In this document: positions 54 through 54,058 of the stretch, in pieces | Position numbering within the stretch: the first letter of the stretch is position 1 | Layout: each line of letters begins with the position of its first letter | Source: Sphaerotilus mobilis | Lineage (GTDB): Bacteria; Pseudomonadota; Gammaproteobacteria; Burkholderiales; Burkholderiaceae_C | NCBI RefSeq assembly: GCF_004216565.1 | Contig: NZ_SGWV01000013.1 | Span: forward strand, 1-64,000 | Direction: 5' to 3' | Length of the DNA stretch: 64,000 nt | Position numbers and translations under genes: made by a program | Notes under the pieces: generated by a model | Seen by the model: only the letters and a program-made list of their open reading frames with translations | What the model was told of the DNA's origin: nothing | The model's database searches: none

Positions 54-90
54 AAACCCCCTCAGTGAAAACTGCAGGGGGTTTGTTCTT
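54..90 (+). terminator. Rho-independent terminator of the rRNA operon
   Basis: AAACCCCC (54-61) pairs with GGGGGTTT (77-84). An inner CAGT/ACTG stem closes on a GAAA tetraloop. A T-rich tail (TTTGTTCTTTT) follows. The position directly after 5S rRNA fits termination of the rRNA transcript. I see no gene in the rest of the stretch up to 229. Confidence 0.9.
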
Positions 91-229
91 TTGGGCGAAG
101 AAGATGCTGCCAGGATTAATTCCGGCGATTCAGCGACGCTCATTGAACATCGACGCGAACGAAGTCGACCCCAACTCTGGCGCAACTTGACGGATCGAGG
201 CCATGTGGCGCGGGCAACATCGCGTAGCC

Positions 230-1054
230 ATGACGCTCCCCGAAGAACTCCGTCGACTTCAGATCGCCTTGCCGGCCTGCCCAAGGGCCTTGCTGGACCT
301 GCAGGCCCTGTTGCGCGAGCCTGCCGTTCACGCACAGGCCTGTGCCGACGTCATCTCGGCCGACATGGCCTTGGCCGCCGAGGTGGTCAAGACCGTCAAC
401 TCCGCGATGTTTGGCCTCTTGCGGCGGGTTGATCACGTCGGAGAAGCCCTGCGTTTCCTCGGCAACGATCAGGTGATGGCCATCACCTTGCAAACCGCCT
501 TGCGCCGGGCGTTTCCGCCGACGCCCTTGATGGACCGGATCTGGGGCGGCGCCGCGCGACTGGCTTGGGTCATGGGCAGAGCGGCTGTGCCCCTGGACCT
601 GGATCCCTGGCTCGCCCACAGCGCGGGGCTGTTTGCCGCATCGGGCGCAGCCGTCTTTGCGTCTCGCAAGGATCTGTTTCCCGGCGGTTACGACCTTCTG
701 TTCGACACCCACACGCATGATCCCCAGGCCCTGGCCGACGCTGAGATCAAGGCGATCGGCGTCGGAAACCACGCCGTGGGATCCGCGCTCTGCGCGCAAT
801 GGGGGTTGTCGAATCAGGTGGTGCGCTACGTCCGTGCGCGCGCAACCCCGAGCCAGACGTGGATGGCGATGGACCTGCCCGTGCGACGCTTGCTGGTGCT
901 CAGCCGCAGCATCGAGACGGCGGGTTTGTCGGAGGACACCATCCCGTTGCCGGCGCACCTCGCAGAACTGACCGGATGGACCAATGAGCGCTACATCGCG
1001 ATCATTCAGGCCGTGCTTGACGAACATCTGCGACGCAGCGCCGCGTTGACCTGA
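230..1054 (+). CDS. HDOD domain protein
   Basis: A 274-residue protein that is almost entirely an HDOD domain, the metal-free relative of HD phosphohydrolases used as a regulatory or scaffold module in bacterial signalling. Seen: an opening helix with LPACPRALLDL, then SADMALAAEVVKTVNSAMFG and the VDHVGEALRFLGNDQV segment near residues 60-90, all typical of the N-terminal half of HDOD domains. No receiver, GGDEF or EAL domain is fused, so its partner is unknown. I chose the ATG at 230 because the family alignment begins there; an in-frame ATG at 203 would add nine residues. It stands alone between the rRNA operon and the uracil cluster. The specific function is not known. Confidence 0.82.
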   Translation: MTLPEELRRLQIALPACPRALLDLQALLREPAVHAQACADVISADMALAAEVVKTVNSAMFGLLRRVDHVGEALRFLGNDQVMAITLQTALRRAFPPTPLMDRIWGGAARLAWVMGRAAVPLDLDPWLAHSAGLFAASGAAVFASRKDLFPGGYDLLFDTHTHDPQALADAEIKAIGVGNHAVGSALCAQWGLSNQVVRYVRARATPSQTWMAMDLPVRRLLVLSRSIETAGLSEDTIPLPAHLAELTGWTNERYIAIIQAVLDEHLRRSAALT

Positions 1055-1160
1055 CACCCCGCACATGACGGGGACGTGCCACTGGCCGGCACGGGTATTG
1101 CGCACACGGGGTTGTCGTCCTTCCGCACGATGCTGAAGCCCACCTCCCTCGGAGTCCGCC

Positions 1161-2435
1161 ATGTCGAGCGATGTCCCGCCGCTGTCCCACATCCGTCTGA
1201 CCTCACATCCGGGTCAGACCGCCCACGGCACGCCCGTGATCCACTGGGGCGAGGCCGACCCGCAACGCCGCGGACCGGTGATCGGCACCACCACGAACCG
1301 CAGCCACCGAAACGTGGTGGGGACCCACAGCGGTAGCTACGGCGTGTATCGGGCCTTGGCGGTGGCAGCCGGCAACCTGACCAAGGGACACCGGGCGGAC
1401 CTGACCAACACGTCCCCGACATCGCCGGTCGGCCCCCATCCGTCGTGGGCAGACGCCCAGAAGATCGTCTCCATCGATCCCTGGGGTGCCTCGGTTGCGC
1501 AGGTCTACGCCGAGCAGATCGCCGAGGGCTACGACATCCGCCCGACGATCGCGGTGACACAAGCGCACATTGACCTGCCGGAGATCCGGCAGGCCATCGC
1601 CTTTCAGCGGCTCAAGCCCGACGGCGAGGTGCTGCTGGAAAACGGCTCGGCCGTCGTCACCAAGGTGGCGCTGGAGCCGGTCTGGTGGTTGCCCGGCGTG
1701 GCGGCGCGTTTCCGCGTCGGCGAGGCCGACCTGCGCCGCACGCTGTTCGAGGAGACCGGCGGCATGTACCCCGAACTGGTCACACGCAGCGACATCGAGG
1801 TCTTCCTGCCGCCGATCGGTGGGCAGACGCTCTACGTCTTCGGCCGCATCCAGGACCTGGCCGATCCGGCCATCACGCTGACCGCGCGGGTGCATGACGA
1901 ATGCAATGGCTCGGACGTCTTCGGCTCCGACATCTGCACCTGCCGGCCCTACCTGACGCACGCGATCGAGGAATGCATCGCCGGTGCCCAGTCGCGTGCG
2001 CACGGCGGACTCGGCGGCGTCGGCCTGATCGCCTACAGCCGCAAGGAAGGCCGGGCGCTCGGGGAGGTCACCAAGTTCCTCGTCTACAACGCCCGCAAAC
2101 GGCAGGTCGGCGGTGATTCGGCCGACAAGTACTTTCTCAGGACCGAATGTGTGGCCGGCGTGCAGGACATGCGCTTCCAGGAACTGATGCCCGACGTGCT
2201 GCACTGGCTGGGCGTGCGCAAGATCCATCGCCTCGTCAGCATGAGCAACGACAAGTACGACGCCATCACCTGCAGCGGCATCGAGGTCGGCGAACGCGTC
2301 AAGATTCCGGACGCCCTCGTGCCGGCCGACGCCCGCGTCGAGATCGAGGCCAAGATCGCCGCCGGCTATTACACGACCGGCGATGTGCCCGACGACACCG
2401 CGCTGGCCGCCGTCAAGGGCCGGGACCTGCGCTGA
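1161..2435 (+). CDS. urc1: URC1-type GTP cyclohydrolase II homologue, uracil catabolism
   Basis: A 424-residue homologue of GTP cyclohydrolase II (RibA) of the URC1 class. Seen: the zinc motif CX10CXC at C248, C259 and C261 (HDECNGSDVF...CTC), followed by a RibA-like region with RKEGRALGEV. The ~190-residue N-terminal extension (GTTTNRSHRNVVGTHSGSY) is typical of the URC1 branch and absent from riboflavin-pathway RibA. In the yeast Lachancea kluyveri, Urc1 with Urc4 and a uracil phosphoribosyltransferase degrades uracil, with 3-hydroxypropionate and urea derivatives as products. The same three families are adjacent here. The ATG at 1161 has CGGAG upstream. URC4 starts 12 bases after the stop. 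Assignment to uracil breakdown rather than riboflavin synthesis rests on the extension and the neighbours. Confidence 0.88.
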   Translation: MSSDVPPLSHIRLTSHPGQTAHGTPVIHWGEADPQRRGPVIGTTTNRSHRNVVGTHSGSYGVYRALAVAAGNLTKGHRADLTNTSPTSPVGPHPSWADAQKIVSIDPWGASVAQVYAEQIAEGYDIRPTIAVTQAHIDLPEIRQAIAFQRLKPDGEVLLENGSAVVTKVALEPVWWLPGVAARFRVGEADLRRTLFEETGGMYPELVTRSDIEVFLPPIGGQTLYVFGRIQDLADPAITLTARVHDECNGSDVFGSDICTCRPYLTHAIEECIAGAQSRAHGGLGGVGLIAYSRKEGRALGEVTKFLVYNARKRQVGGDSADKYFLRTECVAGVQDMRFQELMPDVLHWLGVRKIHRLVSMSNDKYDAITCSGIEVGERVKIPDALVPADARVEIEAKIAAGYYTTGDVPDDTALAAVKGRDLR

Positions 2436-2447
2436 AGCAAGCTGCCG

Positions 2448-3728
2448 ATGAGCCCGAACGTCACTCCCTTGTCCGCCGCCGAGCAGGCCGTCCGCCGCTT
2501 GCGTGACCCCGCCGAAATCCGTCGTCGCTGCGCCGCCATCGCCGCCCATGTGGACGCCTGCGCCTCGCCCCATTTCACCTTGGATCGATCACGCCTGGAT
2601 GCCGTGGCACGCCGCGTGGCCAAGCTCAGCCTGGCGCGATTCCCGACCCTGCGCATCCCGTATCACAGCCGCTGGCGCCACTTCGAAGCCGGCGGCGTCG
2701 ACCGTCAGGCCCGGCTGGACGTGGCGTTGCAAGGGCTGGGCGCGCCTGAAGCCGCCCGCGCGCGGATCGACCTGACCGTCGTCAGCGTGTTGCTGGATGC
2801 CGGCGCCGGGCCGGCCTGGCGCTACCAGGAGCCCGAGACCGACGCCATCCTGACCCGCAGCGAAGGCCTGGCTGTCGCCAGCTTCGATGCCTTCATGACG
2901 GGGCAGTTCTCCAGCGACCCGGCGCAGCCCTGCCGGGTCGACGCGACGGCTCTGTTGGCGCTGCAGCCGTGGCATCTCGCGACGATCTTCCAGGTGCACG
3001 AGGGCAACCCGCTGGTCGGTCTGGACGGCCGCACCGATTTGATGCACCGCCTTGGTGCCGCGCTGCAAGCGCTCGCCCACAAGGAGGGCGGCGCGGCGCG
3101 TCCGGGCCGTCTCTACGACGTGTTGCAGGCCCGGCTGGACCCGGCTACCCGCAGCCTGAAGGCCGCCGACATCCTGGGCGCCTTGCTCGATGCGACCAGC
3201 ACGATCTGGCCGAGTGGCCAGTGGCTGGGACAGCGCGACGGTCACACGCCCGACGACCAGCCGCTGGGCGACGTCTGGCCACACCCTGCCGCTGGCGGCG
3301 AGGCTCTGGACGCCGGCCTCGTGCCGTTCCACAAGCTGTCGCAGTGGCTGAGTTATTCGCTGCTCGAACCCTTTGAATGGGCCGGCATCCCCGTGACCGG
3401 GCTGGACGCGCTCACCGGCTTGCCCGAATACCGCAATGGCGGTCTCTTGCTCGACGCGGGCGTGATCGTCCCGCGCGACCCGGCCATGCTCACCCGACCG
3501 CACCTACCGGCCGACCCGTGGGTGATCGAGTGGCGCGCGCTGACCGTCGCCCTGCTGGACGAACTGGCCCCCCGGGTCAGGGCCGAGCTGGGTGTCAACG
3601 CCGAGCAGCTGCCGCTGGCCTGCATGCTCGAGGGCGGCAGCTGGGCCGCCGGCCGGCAGATCGCCGCCGAGCGCCGCCTGGGCGGACCGCCGCCGGTCCT
3701 GATCGACAGCGATGGCACCGTCTTCTGA
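2448..3728 (+). CDS. urc4: URC4/Urg3 family protein (DUF1688), uracil catabolism
   Basis: A 426-residue DUF1688 protein, the family that contains fungal URC4/urg3. Seen: the conserved blocks IPYHSRWRHFEAGGVDR (near residue 70), SVLLDAGAGPAWRY (near 110), GLAVASFDAF (near 140), PFHKLSQWLSYSLLEPFEW (near 300) and LTGLPEYRNGGLLLD. No signal peptide or membrane segment. Known from yeast genetics: required with Urc1 for growth on uracil as nitrogen source. The exact chemistry of each step was not settled in the work I know. It sits 12 bases after URC1 and 40 bases before upp, so the three probably form one transcript. Length is normal for the family. Confidence 0.88.
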   Translation: MSPNVTPLSAAEQAVRRLRDPAEIRRRCAAIAAHVDACASPHFTLDRSRLDAVARRVAKLSLARFPTLRIPYHSRWRHFEAGGVDRQARLDVALQGLGAPEAARARIDLTVVSVLLDAGAGPAWRYQEPETDAILTRSEGLAVASFDAFMTGQFSSDPAQPCRVDATALLALQPWHLATIFQVHEGNPLVGLDGRTDLMHRLGAALQALAHKEGGAARPGRLYDVLQARLDPATRSLKAADILGALLDATSTIWPSGQWLGQRDGHTPDDQPLGDVWPHPAAGGEALDAGLVPFHKLSQWLSYSLLEPFEWAGIPVTGLDALTGLPEYRNGGLLLDAGVIVPRDPAMLTRPHLPADPWVIEWRALTVALLDELAPRVRAELGVNAEQLPLACMLEGGSWAAGRQIAAERRLGGPPPVLIDSDGTVF

Positions 3729-3768
3729 ACATCCCTGACCCCATCGAGCCACCCATCCGGAGAGCGCC

Positions 3769-4416
3769 ATGAACACCGCCACCACGACCCCGCAGGTCCA
3801 TGTCATCGATCACCCGCTGGTCCAGCACAAGCTCACGCTGATGCGGCAGAAGGACCTCTCCACCAGCAGCTTCCGTCGCCTGCTTGGCGAAATCAGCATG
3901 CTCATGGCCTACGAGGTCACGCGCGACATGCCGACCCAGCTGATCGAGATCGAAACGCCGCTCGAAAAGATGATGAGCCCGGTGATCGAGGGCAGGAAGA
4001 CCGTCTTCGTCGTTGTGATGCGTGCCGGCAGCGGCTTTCTCGACGGCATGCTGGAGGTCGTGCCCGGCGCGCGCGTCGGCCACATCGGCCTGTACCGCGA
4101 CCCGAAGACGCTGGTGGCCGTCGAGTACTACTTCAAGATGCCCGGCGACATGCACGAACGCGACGCCATCGTGCTGGACCCGATGCTGGCGACCGGCAAC
4201 TCGGCCGCCGCTGCGGTCGAGCGGCTCAAGGAGACGCGGCCACGTTCGATCCGCTTCGTCAGCCTGCTCGCCGCGCCCGAGGGCCTGTCACGCTTCCATG
4301 CCCACCACCCGGACGTGCCGGTCTACACCGCTGCGATCGACCGGCAGCTCAACGACCATGGCTACATCGTCCCGGGACTGGGCGATGCCGGCGACCGCAT
4401 GTTTGGCACCAAATGA
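3769..4416 (+). CDS. upp: uracil phosphoribosyltransferase
   Basis: A 215-residue cytosolic enzyme converting uracil and PRPP to UMP and pyrophosphate. Seen: the PRPP loop [20 protein letters not shown] (residues ~138-157) and the family-typical C-terminus [18 protein letters not shown], so the gene is full length. A purine-rich CGGAGAG precedes the ATG at 3769. It is third in the URC1-URC4-upp cluster. In the URC pathway a uracil phosphoribosyltransferase makes the nucleotide on which Urc1 and Urc4 act, so this copy may serve degradation as well as salvage. Its last 129 bases overlap the 3' end of the minus-strand FMN glutamate-synthase-like gene. Confidence 0.97.
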
Positions 4417-8523: not shown

Positions 8524-9291
8524 TCAGGCCGGCATCGCCGGCAAGGCCAACACCACCTCGACCTGCAGCGTGCCGCCCTGATCGACGATGTCGAGCTGGG
8601 CCCCCAGGCGCGTGCTGAGTTGGCGCAGCCGGCGCGCGCAGCGGGCCTGCACGCTGCGCGGTCCCCCGCTCAGACGCAGCCGCAAATGGCTGCCGGTCTC
8701 GCCATCCAGCCGATCCAGTTCGACCCGCAGGACCGCCGCGCCATCCGGGCTTGCCGGTGCATCGGCAGCGGGCGCATCGCCCAGCAGGTGGGTCGCCGCA
8801 TCCAGCGACGCGAGCAGCCAGGCCTGCTGTGCCGGCGGCAAGGCCACGTCGCGCGCCGCCGGGTGCACATGGCCCACCAGACGGACGCCTTGGGCGCGCA
8901 GCCGCGCCTGCTGCTGTCGACAGGCGTGATCGACGCTGCGCCCCAGCGTCTCGGCGTTGCCGAGCGCCTCGGGTGTCCGGACGCCGCCCGGCAGCCAGGA
9001 CACGCCACACCAACGTCGCCCGATCGCCAGCGTCGCGCCAAACAACGCGCCGCCGAGCATCGGCAGCGGCGCGCCGCTGTCGTCGGCCCGCACGCCGGCC
9101 AGCCATGGCAGGCCGATCCCCACCACCAACACCGCACTGGCACTCAGGACGGCCGACCGACCCAGCGGCGTGCGCCACAGTCCCGGCCGTGCGGAGGGCT
9201 CGGCAGGGCAGGGCGCGGTGGGCTCGGGGCGCAGCAGGAAGGGCACGGTGCGGGTGAGGAAAGCGGGGTGATTGAGCGTGATCCGTTGCAC
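8524..9291 (-). CDS. hypothetical membrane protein with a histidine-kinase-like tail
   Basis: A 255-residue protein I cannot assign to a named family. The GTG at 9291 has GGAG six bases upstream and no ATG lies nearby. Seen: two hydrophobic segments near residues 50-67 (SAVLSASAVLVVGIGLPWLAG) and 76-90. A C-terminal half follows whose layout (LRVELDRL, LRLRLSGG, RRLRQLSTRLGAQLDI, QGGTLQVEVVLALP) recalls the end of HATPase domains of NarX/LytS-type kinases. I see no phospho-accepting histidine and no proper N, G1 or G2 boxes, so kinase activity is not supported. Codons end mostly in G or C, as in the neighbours. It is divergent from the riboswitch-controlled metX. Confidence 0.55.
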   Translation of the reverse strand: MQRITLNHPAFLTRTVPFLLRPEPTAPCPAEPSARPGLWRTPLGRSAVLSASAVLVVGIGLPWLAGVRADDSGAPLPMLGGALFGATLAIGRRWCGVSWLPGGVRTPEALGNAETLGRSVDHACRQQQARLRAQGVRLVGHVHPAARDVALPPAQQAWLLASLDAATHLLGDAPAADAPASPDGAAVLRVELDRLDGETGSHLRLRLSGGPRSVQARCARRLRQLSTRLGAQLDIVDQGGTLQVEVVLALPAMPA

Positions 9292-9420
9292 GAAATTCTC
9301 CGATCGCGCCGGCTCGCCGCACACCCCAAGGACGTGGGGGCCGGACCAACGGGCCCGATTCGCGCCCGAACCGTCGTTTGCACCCGGCGGCCCCACATGT
9401 CGGGGCCAGGGACGCGGCGT

Positions 9421-9426
9421 TAAACT
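9421..9426 (+). promoter_or_regulatory. probable -10 element of the metX leader
   Basis: TAAACT, four of six matches to TATAAT. A start about seven bases downstream would begin the transcript exactly at the SAM-II aptamer. The -35 region (TGTCGG around 9398-9403) is weak. Confidence 0.5.
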
Positions 9427-9432
9427 CCTTTT

Positions 9433-9487
9433 CAGCGCCGATTTGGTCCGGCTTGCGGGCGCTCTAGAAATTCCGCTAAAGGGGGAC
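9433..9487 (+). promoter_or_regulatory. SAM-II (SAM-alpha) riboswitch aptamer upstream of metX
   Basis: An S-adenosylmethionine-sensing RNA of H-type pseudoknot class. P1 is AGCGCC (9434-9439) with GGCGCT (9458-9463), six perfect pairs. The loop carries the hallmark GATTTGG then CCGGCTTGC. After P1 come the A-rich linker and the conserved CGCTAAA (9474-9480), then a run of G (9481-9485) that can pair back to the loop GGTCC (9445-9449) to form the pseudoknot. Order, spacing and conserved bases match the SAM-II class known chiefly upstream of metX/metA in alphaproteobacteria. High SAM would lower methionine synthesis. Confidence 0.93.
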
Positions 9488-9532
9488 ACCCGCGAACCCG
9501 GTGTCCGCTTCGAGGCGGCGCCGGGTTTTTTT
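9484..9532 (+). terminator. SAM-controlled attenuator: antiterminator and intrinsic terminator
   Basis: Two exclusive hairpins follow the aptamer. Terminator: AACCCGG (9495-9501) pairs with CCGGGTT (9521-9527), with an inner CCGC/GCGG stem, followed by seven T (9526-9532), ending 14 bases before the metX start. Alternative: GGACACC (9484-9490) pairs perfectly with GGTGTCC (9500-9506), which uses part of the terminator's left arm. The left arm of this alternative overlaps the G-run needed for the pseudoknot. SAM binding would thus free the terminator, and absence of SAM would favour the antiterminator. This logic is inference from base pairing. Confidence 0.85.
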
Positions 9533-9546
9533 GTGGATCGGGATCG

Positions 9547-10680
9547 ATGCAGACACTCGGGCATGTGACGCCCCAGACCATGGCCTTCGCCGAACCGCTG
9601 CCCTTGCGCAGCGGCGCGACGCTCGGGCCCTACGAGCTGGTCTACGAGACCTACGGCACCCTCAACGCCGAGCGCAGCAACGCGGTGCTGGTGTGCCACG
9701 CGCTGAACGCGAGCCACCACGTCGCCGGCACCTATGCTGGCCAGGAGCGCAGCCAGGGCTGGTGGGACAACCTGGTCGGACCGGGCAAGCCACTGGACAC
9801 CAACCGCTTCTTCGTCATCGGCGTCAACAACCCGGGCTCCTGCTTCGGCTCGACCGGGCCGACGCATGTCAACCCGGCGAATGGCCAGATCTACGGCGCC
9901 GACTTCCCGGTCGTCACCGTCGAAGACTGGGTTGACGCGCAGGCCCGCCTGATCGACCGCCTGGGCATCACGCAGCTGGCCGCCGTGCAGGGCGGCAGCC
10001 TGGGGGGCATGCAGGCGCTGAGCTGGACGCTGCGCCACCCGGCGCGTGTCCGCCATGCGCTGGTGATCGCCAGTGCGCCCAACCTGTCGGCCCAGAACAT
10101 TGCGTTCAACGAAGTGGCGCGGCGGGCCATCGTGACCGATCCCGACTTCCACGGCGGTCACTACCAGGCCCATGGCGTCGTGCCCAAGCGTGGCCTGACG
10201 GTGGCCCGCATGATCGGCCACATCACCTACCTGTCGGACGACTCGATGGAGGAGAAGTTCGGCCGCTCGCTGCGCGCCGCCGAGCTGGCCTACAGCACCC
10301 AGGCGATCGAGTTCCAGATCGAGAGCTACCTGCGCTACCAGGGCGACAAGTTCAGCGAGTACTTCGACGCCAACACCTACTTGCTGATCACCCGCGCGCT
10401 CGACTACTTCGATCCGGCCGGCGAATTCGGCGGCGACCTGAGTGCCGCGCTGGCCCAGGCGCGTGCCAAGTTCCAGGTCATCAGCTTCACGACCGACTGG
10501 CGCTTCTCGCCGCAGCGCTCGCGCGAGATCGTCAAGGCGCTGGTCGACAACGGCCACGACGTCAGCTACGCCGAGATCGCCGCGCCGCACGGCCACGACG
10601 CCTTCCTGCTCGACGACCCGCGCTACCACGCGGTCGTGCGCAGCCGCTACGACCGCATCGCCCAGGAGATCGGCGCATGA
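9547..10680 (+). CDS. metX: homoserine O-acyltransferase
   Basis: A 377-residue alpha/beta-hydrolase-fold enzyme that transfers an acetyl or succinyl group to homoserine, the first committed step of methionine synthesis. Seen: the nucleophile motif GGSLGGMQ (Ser-151), the acid in FTTDWRF (Asp-317) and the base in [10 protein letters not shown] (His-350). The oxyanion region [12 protein letters not shown] is also present. Length is standard. The ribosome site is weak (GGGA close to the ATG). Whether acetyl- or succinyl-CoA is used cannot be read safely from sequence. It overlaps metW by four bases (ATGA), so the two are translationally coupled, and expression is gated by the SAM-II leader. Confidence 0.97.
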
Positions 10681-11261
10681 CCCGGCGTCAGACCCTCGAC
10701 ACCATCGCCCGCCTGGTGCCCGAAGGCAGCCGCGTGCTCGACCTCGGCTGCGGCGGTGGCGCCCTGCTGGCGCTCTTGCAGCGCGAGCGCGCCTGCACCG
10801 GCTACGGCGTTGAACTCGATGACGCCAAGGTGCACGACTGCGTGCAGCGCGGCGTCAACGTCCTGCAGCTCAATCTGGAAGAGGGCCTGGCCCTGTTCGA
10901 GGACAACAGCTTCGACGTCGTGCTGCAGCTCGACACCTTGCAGAACCTGCGCAACACCGAGGCCATGCTGCGCGAGACCGCCCGTGTGGGCCGCATCGGC
11001 ATCGTCTCCTTCCCCAACTTCGCCCACTGGCCCAACCGGCTGTCGGTGCTGCGCGGGCGCATGCCGGTCACCAAGACGCTGCCTTACCAGTGGTTCGACA
11101 CGCCCAACATCCGCGTGGGCACCTATGCCGATTTCGAGGTGCTGGCCGAGCAATGCGGGCTGCGCATCCTCGAATCCTTCGGCCTGCACGACGGGCGCAT
11201 CGTGACCCGCCACCCCAACCTGCTGGCCAGCACGGCGGTGTTCAAGTTCCAGCGCGCCTGA
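10677..11261 (+). CDS. metW: methionine biosynthesis protein MetW
   Basis: A 194-residue class I SAM-dependent-methyltransferase-fold protein. Seen: the SAM-binding [15 protein letters not shown] (residues ~20-34), then the MetW-typical [22 protein letters not shown] and [12 protein letters not shown]. MetW is found with MetX in proteobacteria and is reported to support or activate homoserine acyltransferase; no methyltransferase reaction is firmly assigned. It starts within the metX stop and shares its SAM-II control. The 240 bases after it hold no gene or clear terminator that I can see. Confidence 0.95.
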
Positions 11262-53937: not shown

Positions 53938-54058
53938 GTCCGCGAGCGACGGGCCGCAAGGCCCTCGTTCCCTGCTTTTCCTCCCTGAGCAGGTGCCTTA
54001 CCGTGTTGACAGCGTTAAGGCTTTGCAGCCCCAGCATCGAGCTGGGGCTCTTTTTTTT
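53938..54058 (+). ncRNA. candidate small RNA with four hairpins and terminator
   Basis: A ~120-base stretch without a plausible ORF that folds into consecutive stems. The first is GGGCC/GGCCC on a GCAA tetraloop (53951-53964, extended by CGA/TCG). The second is CCTGC/GCAGG (53971-53993) with the pyrimidine loop TTTTCCTCCCTGA. The third is GCCTTA/TAAGGC (53995-54021). The last is a textbook terminator, AGCCCCAGC/GCTGGGGCT (54027-54049) followed by eight T. A -10-like TACACT (53931-53936) precedes it. The C-rich loop could pair with Shine-Dalgarno sequences. The neighbours on both sides point away, so it does not look like a leader or trailer. The family is unknown to me. Confidence 0.7.

Follow-up and report, generated by a model that had tools for sequence, protein, structure and literature searches.

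A SAM-II-like leader with overlapping P2, antiterminator and terminator pairings before metX of Sphaerotilus mobilis, and a candidate related element before metK

The window analysed here comprises 64,000 nucleotides of Sphaerotilus mobilis (contig NZ_SGWV01000013.1, positions 1 to 64,000), and all features of the metX region are given on its forward (+) strand. To judge by its sequence, a true SAM-II riboswitch that carries a transcription terminator appears to stand directly before metX. Its pseudoknot helix P2, an antiterminator and a terminator are three competing pairings on one chain, and we consider it very likely that the element controls metX-metW by transcription termination and is OFF with SAM. 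It would thus be a compact attenuator that can be traced base by base, with the pseudoknot strand doubling as antiterminator strand. The element is ordinary in kind and its type is common in the host family, where it has apparently been carried in the literature under other names; its value lies in clearing up these names and in the lead that it gives to a second element, before metK, which we regard as the more interesting one.

Aptamer, promoter and downstream genes

In a cmscan search against Rfam, the full model (1-79) of RF00521 (SAM_alpha, SAM-II) matched positions 9425-9495 (+) with 38.9 bits and an E-value of 3.1e-5, the gathering score of the family being 36 bits. An earlier note, made on the letters of the window, had claimed a full SAM-II core before metX and named a comparison with RF00521 as its check; the match exceeds the gathering score, P1, the core and the pseudoknot arms lie where the note had placed them, and its account holds in nearly all details. 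At an E-value of 0.001, this is the only RF00521 match in the 4.65-Mb genome.

P1 is formed by AGCGCC (9434-9439) and GGCGCT (9458-9463). Its loop contains GATTTG (9440-9445), the P2 5' arm GTCC (9446-9449), which pairs in a run of four with GGAC (9484-9487), and the conserved core CTTGC (9452-9456), whose GC is able to pair with the GC of GCTAAA. The second core segment, CCGCTAAA (9473-9480), is followed by a G-run (9481-9485) that overlaps the P2 3' arm GGAC, the latter being shared with the antiterminator. Read as a whole, the order after CCGCTAAA is GGGGGACACC, a terminator with seven T, and the ATG at 9547. The likeness to RF00521 covers P1, a predicted P2 pseudoknot, GATTTG, CTTGC, GCTAAA, the terminator, a -10 element closely preceding P1 and a methionine gene downstream; the element differs from the consensus in its shorter P2 region, where 3 and 5 model positions are deleted, and in standing before a betaproteobacterial metX-metW.

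The gene beginning at this ATG (9547..10680, 377 aa) was named metX in the earlier note, and the name is confirmed by NCBIfam NF047916 (661.1 bits, cut-off 560). This best model is titled homoserine O-succinyltransferase MetX; the acetyltransferase-named NF001209 also passes (564.8 versus 331 bits). Its end overlaps the next gene, metW (10677..11261, 194 aa; TIGR02081, 235.5 bits, cut-off 189.5), by 4 nt.

For comparison, leaders were gathered from 111 of the 169 family genomes matching RF00521, from the members of the genus and from 80 loci found by MetX. After 7 of these 202 loci had been set aside for want of an acceptable core, 174 distinct leaders remained. TTGC and GCTAAA are present in all 174, which is largely built in, as the search pattern requires both. 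Among the leaders found by RNA search alone, 116 of 119 distinct ones have metX downstream. In 82 relatives, 96.7% of the P1 cells are paired and 13 cells are changed on both sides, neither figure being reached in any of 500 shuffles. Covariation in P1 is confined to two of its six pairs, those at the ends; this count of pairs changed on both sides is equalled by 169 of the 500 shuffles, and the other four pairs never vary. For P2 (n = 171), the arms score 3.80, compared to 3.19 for shuffled arms and 3.76 (sd 0.04) for arms permuted between leaders. As they are no better than permuted arms, P2 shows conservation, not covariation.

A -10 element, TAAACT, was read at 9421..9426, with a predicted RNA start at about 9433; no -35 element was seen before it. 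The earlier note had the RNA start at the aptamer from a -10 at 9421, a position that the relatives bear out: a TAnnnT hexamer lies 4-18 nt before P1 in 168 of the 174 distinct leaders, compared to 1-4 of 174 in five control windows starting at least 14 nt before P1. When 166 of these hexamers were aligned, a G stood two bases before the hexamer in 73%, as it does before the TAAACT of the window, and no -35 consensus emerged. With these two traits, the leader -10 is presumably of the extended -10 type. A simple consensus scan of 9200-9700, which demands a -35 and an unbulged stem, returned no promoter and no terminator.

Terminator and antiterminator

By folding, the intrinsic terminator (9494..9532) consists of 9494-9509 paired with 9514-9528, a loop at 9510-9513 and a T-run at 9526-9532. 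The stem has 15 bp with one bulged U and a free energy of -26.1 kcal/mol, and segment 9481-9533, at -31.2 kcal/mol, is more stable than all 200 shuffles (z -3.53). The arms first named for it, AACCCGG (9495-9501) and CCGGGTT (9521-9527), and the seven T were correctly located in the earlier note; the stem is longer than the 7 bp given there. A terminator is present in 153 of the 174 distinct leaders and was not detected in 21 under a relaxed criterion, a stricter one leaving 48 of 174 without.

The predicted antiterminator hairpin (9484..9506) pairs GGACACC (9484-9490) with GGTGTCC (9500-9506) at a folding energy of -10.2 kcal/mol. Its 3' arm lies wholly inside the terminator 5' arm; since the terminator is longer than first described, the overlap covers all of 9500-9506 and not only the GG. 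The P2 3' arm GGAC (9484-9487) in turn lies inside the antiterminator 5' arm. Two proposals of the earlier note agree with this anatomy: that the two stems exclude one another, and that the G-run needed by the pseudoknot overlaps the left arm of the antiterminator.

When 9493-9533 was dinucleotide-shuffled 5000 times, 50 of the shuffled segments offered 9481-9492 a Watson-Crick match of 7 bp, so that the antiterminator of the window, taken alone, is a chance event at about the 1% level. In the 153 leaders with a terminator, including the odd L111 and L153, the mean energy of pairing between the P2 3' region and the terminator 5' arm of the same leader is -11.88 kcal/mol. Swapping partners among the same leaders gave a mean of -10.73 kcal/mol (lowest of 40 swap means -11.19, with kinship between leaders remaining in this comparison), and shuffling the arms a mean of -9.94 kcal/mol (lowest of 40 means -10.49). 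With L111, L153 and five leaders lacking a clear anchor dropped (n = 146), the longest antiterminator pairing run averages 5.13 for own and 4.65 (sd 0.07) for permuted partners, kinship again remaining. At least 6 contiguous pairs, G-U allowed, are found in 68 of these 146 leaders; with Watson-Crick pairs only, 8 of 146 reach 6 pairs and the excess over permuted partners drops to z 1.6. Within the 13 members of the genus, own (-14.94) and swapped (-14.33) arms are barely apart.

Covariation between columns was ranked in a MAFFT alignment of 136 leaders, comprising 4280 ranks. One terminator pair ranks 2, and the P1 end pairs rank 4 and 39; the antiterminator columns range from 58 to 4184. In our view these low ranks arise because the antiterminator is out of register between lineages, for which reason the swap and permutation tests were used instead. 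Of the covariation that the earlier note had proposed to seek in both stems among relatives, that of the antiterminator is partial; support for the antiterminator is moderate, and it is likely real, not proven.

The growing transcript was folded at 11 chosen ends, either free or under a constraint representing the bound state, in which P1 is enforced and the core and both P2 arms are barred from pairing. When the arms are free, no antiterminator pair forms at end 9506, and all 7 pairs form at five ends (9510, 9515, 9518, 9520 and 9522). Under the bound-state constraint, the antiterminator is absent at all 11 ends, and 9518 is the first end with terminator pairs. From end 9524 on, the best structure contains the terminator, constrained or free. 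The free full-length fold (-46.1 kcal/mol) contains the terminator as well, and even P1 yields to other pairs. As full-length folding picks the terminator either way, an equilibrium model yields no switch, and switching, if real, must be kinetic. The antiterminator would then have to delay the terminator hairpin until the polymerase has passed the U-tract. The truncated RNA 9433-9508 folds as P1 plus antiterminator, at a stability equalled or exceeded by 134 of 200 shuffles (z +0.65).

Proposed mechanism and alternatives

From the structures above we infer SAM as the ligand, kinetic switching and the OFF direction. RNA polymerase would start about 1 nt before P1, as judged from the -10 element. 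When SAM is scarce, 9484-9490 would pair with 9500-9506 soon after synthesis, and the resulting hairpin would occupy the terminator 5' arm and let the polymerase read through into metX. When SAM is bound, P2 (9446-9449 with 9484-9487) would hold the antiterminator strand, the terminator (9494-9528) would form and transcription would stop near 9532.

Alternatively, the terminator behind the SAM-II aptamer might be effectively constitutive, the short RNA being made mostly for its own sake or to hold metX down, with little effect of SAM on termination. The dominance of the terminator at full length in either state and the roughly 1% chance level of the isolated antiterminator fit this reading, for which there is also a parallel in Sinorhizobium meliloti metA, where, in the excerpted text of PMC9373788, a SAM-II aptamer is followed by a terminator not predicted to be SAM-dependent. 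Against it stands the complementarity of the arms in 153 leaders, which goes beyond that of swapped or shuffled partners and involves the strand beside the core that also forms P2; we consider a constitutive terminator unlikely. Control might instead be mainly translational, P2 or its platform hiding the metX ribosome binding site as in compact metagenomic SAM-II RNAs, and a review, in its excerpted text, explains the action of the crystallised metX SAM-II riboswitch by direct occlusion through P2 (PMC10907184). Here, however, about 60 nt and a strong terminator with seven T separate P2 from the start codon, and translational control appears very improbable. Sequence cannot tell the ligand, which might have changed, for instance to SAH; yet the core fits the SAM-II consensus and metX follows 116 of 119 leaders, and we give a changed ligand next to no credence. 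Termination controlled by SAM remains our preferred reading of the metX leader.

Distribution and relation to published elements

RF00521 matches 169 of 299 family genomes at an E-value of 0.001, 70 of the 299 above the cut-off, and all 13 genomes of the genus, 12 of them above the cut-off. A model built from 82 family aptamers (R1) matches 270 of the 299 family genomes, many of which had supplied its training rows. A megablast search against plasmids gave no match. The earlier note had implied that SAM-II in a betaproteobacterial background is unusual; these counts speak otherwise, as do the excerpted texts of PMC1273637, PMC2258182 and PMC2704228. In these excerpts, the discovery paper of 2005 names Bordetella bronchiseptica in a figure legend and describes SAM-II elements as usually showing promoter elements immediately ahead of P1 and, in many cases, putative terminators (PMC1273637); SAM-II in alpha- and betaproteobacteria is described as mostly terminator-linked, with a mechanism not experimentally established at that time (PMC2258182); and Alpha-, Beta- and Gammaproteobacteria are listed as the groups in which SAM-II is commonest (PMC2704228). 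Betaproteobacterial SAM-II was thus in print by 2007, as far as these excerpts go. In S. meliloti, according to the excerpt of PMC9373788, the SAM-II leader of metZ gives rise to an RNA of about 100 nt that is ascribed to termination and is up under high SAM. This leader resembles that of the window in having a SAM-II aptamer and, behind it, a terminator predicted to depend on SAM; it differs in belonging to another gene in an alphaproteobacterium and in having had its RNA levels measured, while the window element is known from sequence (PMC9373788). On the precedents excerpted from PMC1273637, PMC2258182 and PMC9373788, the window element belongs to a known kind.

In the text portion of Leyn et al. 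(2014; PMC4239095) considered here, SAM_alpha is confined to Rhizobiales and Rhodobacterales, and a new element, 'metXZ', is proposed before metX or metZ in 35 of the authors' betaproteobacterial genomes. Like the window element, metXZ stands before metXW in betaproteobacteria and has a poly-U terminator after it; of its six conserved regions, the pairings 1-4 and 2-6 follow the order of SAM-II P1 and P2 (PMC4239095). Its authors call it new, and we liken it to SAM-II by topology and context, on which grounds metXZ is probably SAM-II and the same element as that of the window (PMC4239095, in part). If so, the published restriction of SAM_alpha to two alphaproteobacterial orders, as the excerpt has it (PMC4239095), needs correcting. 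When 16 titled loci were compared with Rfam, 15 metX leaders matched RF00521 at E <= 0.5, six of them with an E-value above 0.05 and 4 with a score above the cut-off; the metX leaders of Variovorax, Acidovorax, Diaphorobacter, Giesbergeria and Ramlibacter are all under the cut-off, and that of Comamonas granuli, among these 16 loci, had no RF00521 match at E 0.5. Scores lying mostly below the cut-off could explain why the kinship may have been overlooked in the part of Leyn et al. considered (PMC4239095).

Another name may be Bp2_287 (RF02424), from work on Burkholderia pseudomallei, which the excerpted text places ahead of methionine genes, its figure legend naming metX and metZ (PMC3521395). 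Weak RF02424 matches (23-32 bits, cut-off 70) were found opposite the SAM-II strand in five loci (L207, L047, L164, L187 and L200), and every RF02424 score lies far under the cut-off. Among 18 RF02424 matches inspected, 15 lack a convincing SAM-II core, and convincing cores on the opposite strand are present at three loci (L203, L207 and L214). L204 carries RF02424 on both strands, and next to the RF02424 match of L206 there is no SAM-II match; RF02424 has no match in the S. mobilis genome at an E-value of 0.001 and none in the window at the cut-off. That Bp2_287 is the other strand of SAM-II leaders is therefore, from these sequence matches, a possibility that has been weakened. The strand of RF02424 in Rfam may be reversed.

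A related element before metK

In relatives, R1 also matches before metK, at nine loci and with 30.8 to 40.2 bits. One 15-base motif from these metK leaders, GCTAAAGCGTTCGCC, is present in 268 of the 299 family genomes and in 131 of 141 genera, the reversed pattern giving four matches as a control. Of 300 genomes sampled from the order, 10 have the motif, namely all nine family members in the sample and 1 of 291 others. The 87 distinct copies examined lie 46-79 nt before metK in 86 cases, the sole exception being the copy from another family.

These 86 metK leaders, chosen for an exact 15-mer that itself includes parts of the core and P2, were examined further. P1 has at least 5 pairs in 86/86, its ends exchanging A-T/G-C and C-G/T-G/T-A, and a linker 11 to 98 nt long separates it from the core. 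The loop reads G(A/G)(G/T)TTA in 86/86 and GAGTTA in 81, TTGC is present in 86/86, and in 86/86 a segment ahead of it could pair with GTTC, an ability that shuffled leaders show in a mean of 14.6 and a maximum of 25 cases. A -10-like hexamer was found in 85/86. The features of a possible translational switch are less constant: a downstream hairpin arm is present in 74/86, a match to the start region, GGCGAACG, in 64/86, and CTCC together with GGAG in 57/86. The copy in the S. mobilis genome (C3, L285:1326-1501) has a long linker. The element was also seen in L270-L272, L276-L278, L280-L282 and L286 onward.

In these RNAs, P2 and the downstream hairpin would compete for GCGUUCGCC. The latter could also pair with the metK start, exactly so in 64 of the 86, and has close by a CUCC that could pair with a GGAG Shine-Dalgarno sequence. 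We find it fairly probable that Burkholderiaceae possess at least two SAM-II-type switches, the metX attenuator and a metK subclass that feeds back on SAM synthetase, the latter probably at the level of translation. Rfam 15 gave no riboswitch match in nine metK leaders (L270-L272, L276, L277, L280-L282 and L285), and the results included one chance microRNA model. In the main text of open-licence PMC papers, we found no report of the element. According to the part of Leyn et al. considered above, metK is without a known regulator in betaproteobacteria (PMC4239095), a gap, as far as that part goes, which the metK element would fill if it binds SAM.

Further SAM-II-like elements and other observations

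A second element in the S. mobilis genome was found with R1 at C1:204117-204176 (-) with 51.6 bits, the next match scoring 14.1 bits. This element, which was also seen at L232/L234, seems to carry a -10, possesses a terminator-like stem with a T-run, and is followed by a 75-aa open reading frame without a passing Pfam family and then by a DUF3293 gene. Near position 2500 of five loci (L265-L269), another SAM-II-like type (GATTTACCAACTACTTGC) and a terminator-like stem precede a protein of 137-149 aa; Pfam assigned no family to the two of these five proteins that were searched.

Several leaders depart from the simple layout. In the metX leaders L047, L153 and L166, a dispersed repeat of about 60 nt separates the core from the P2 3' arm, and GCTAAA, or something close to it, recurs after the insert; at an E-value of 0.01, the repeat has 3 to 6 matches per genome, that of the leader included. 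Tandem SAM-II-like cores, about 160-170 nt apart, are present in L111, L273 and L274. At L203 (near 1542, +) and L275 (near 1934, -), SAM-II-like elements carry an extra hairpin between P1 and GCTAAA. Elsewhere in the window, positions 53969-54056 match the anti-hemB small RNA RF02837 with 63.8 bits.
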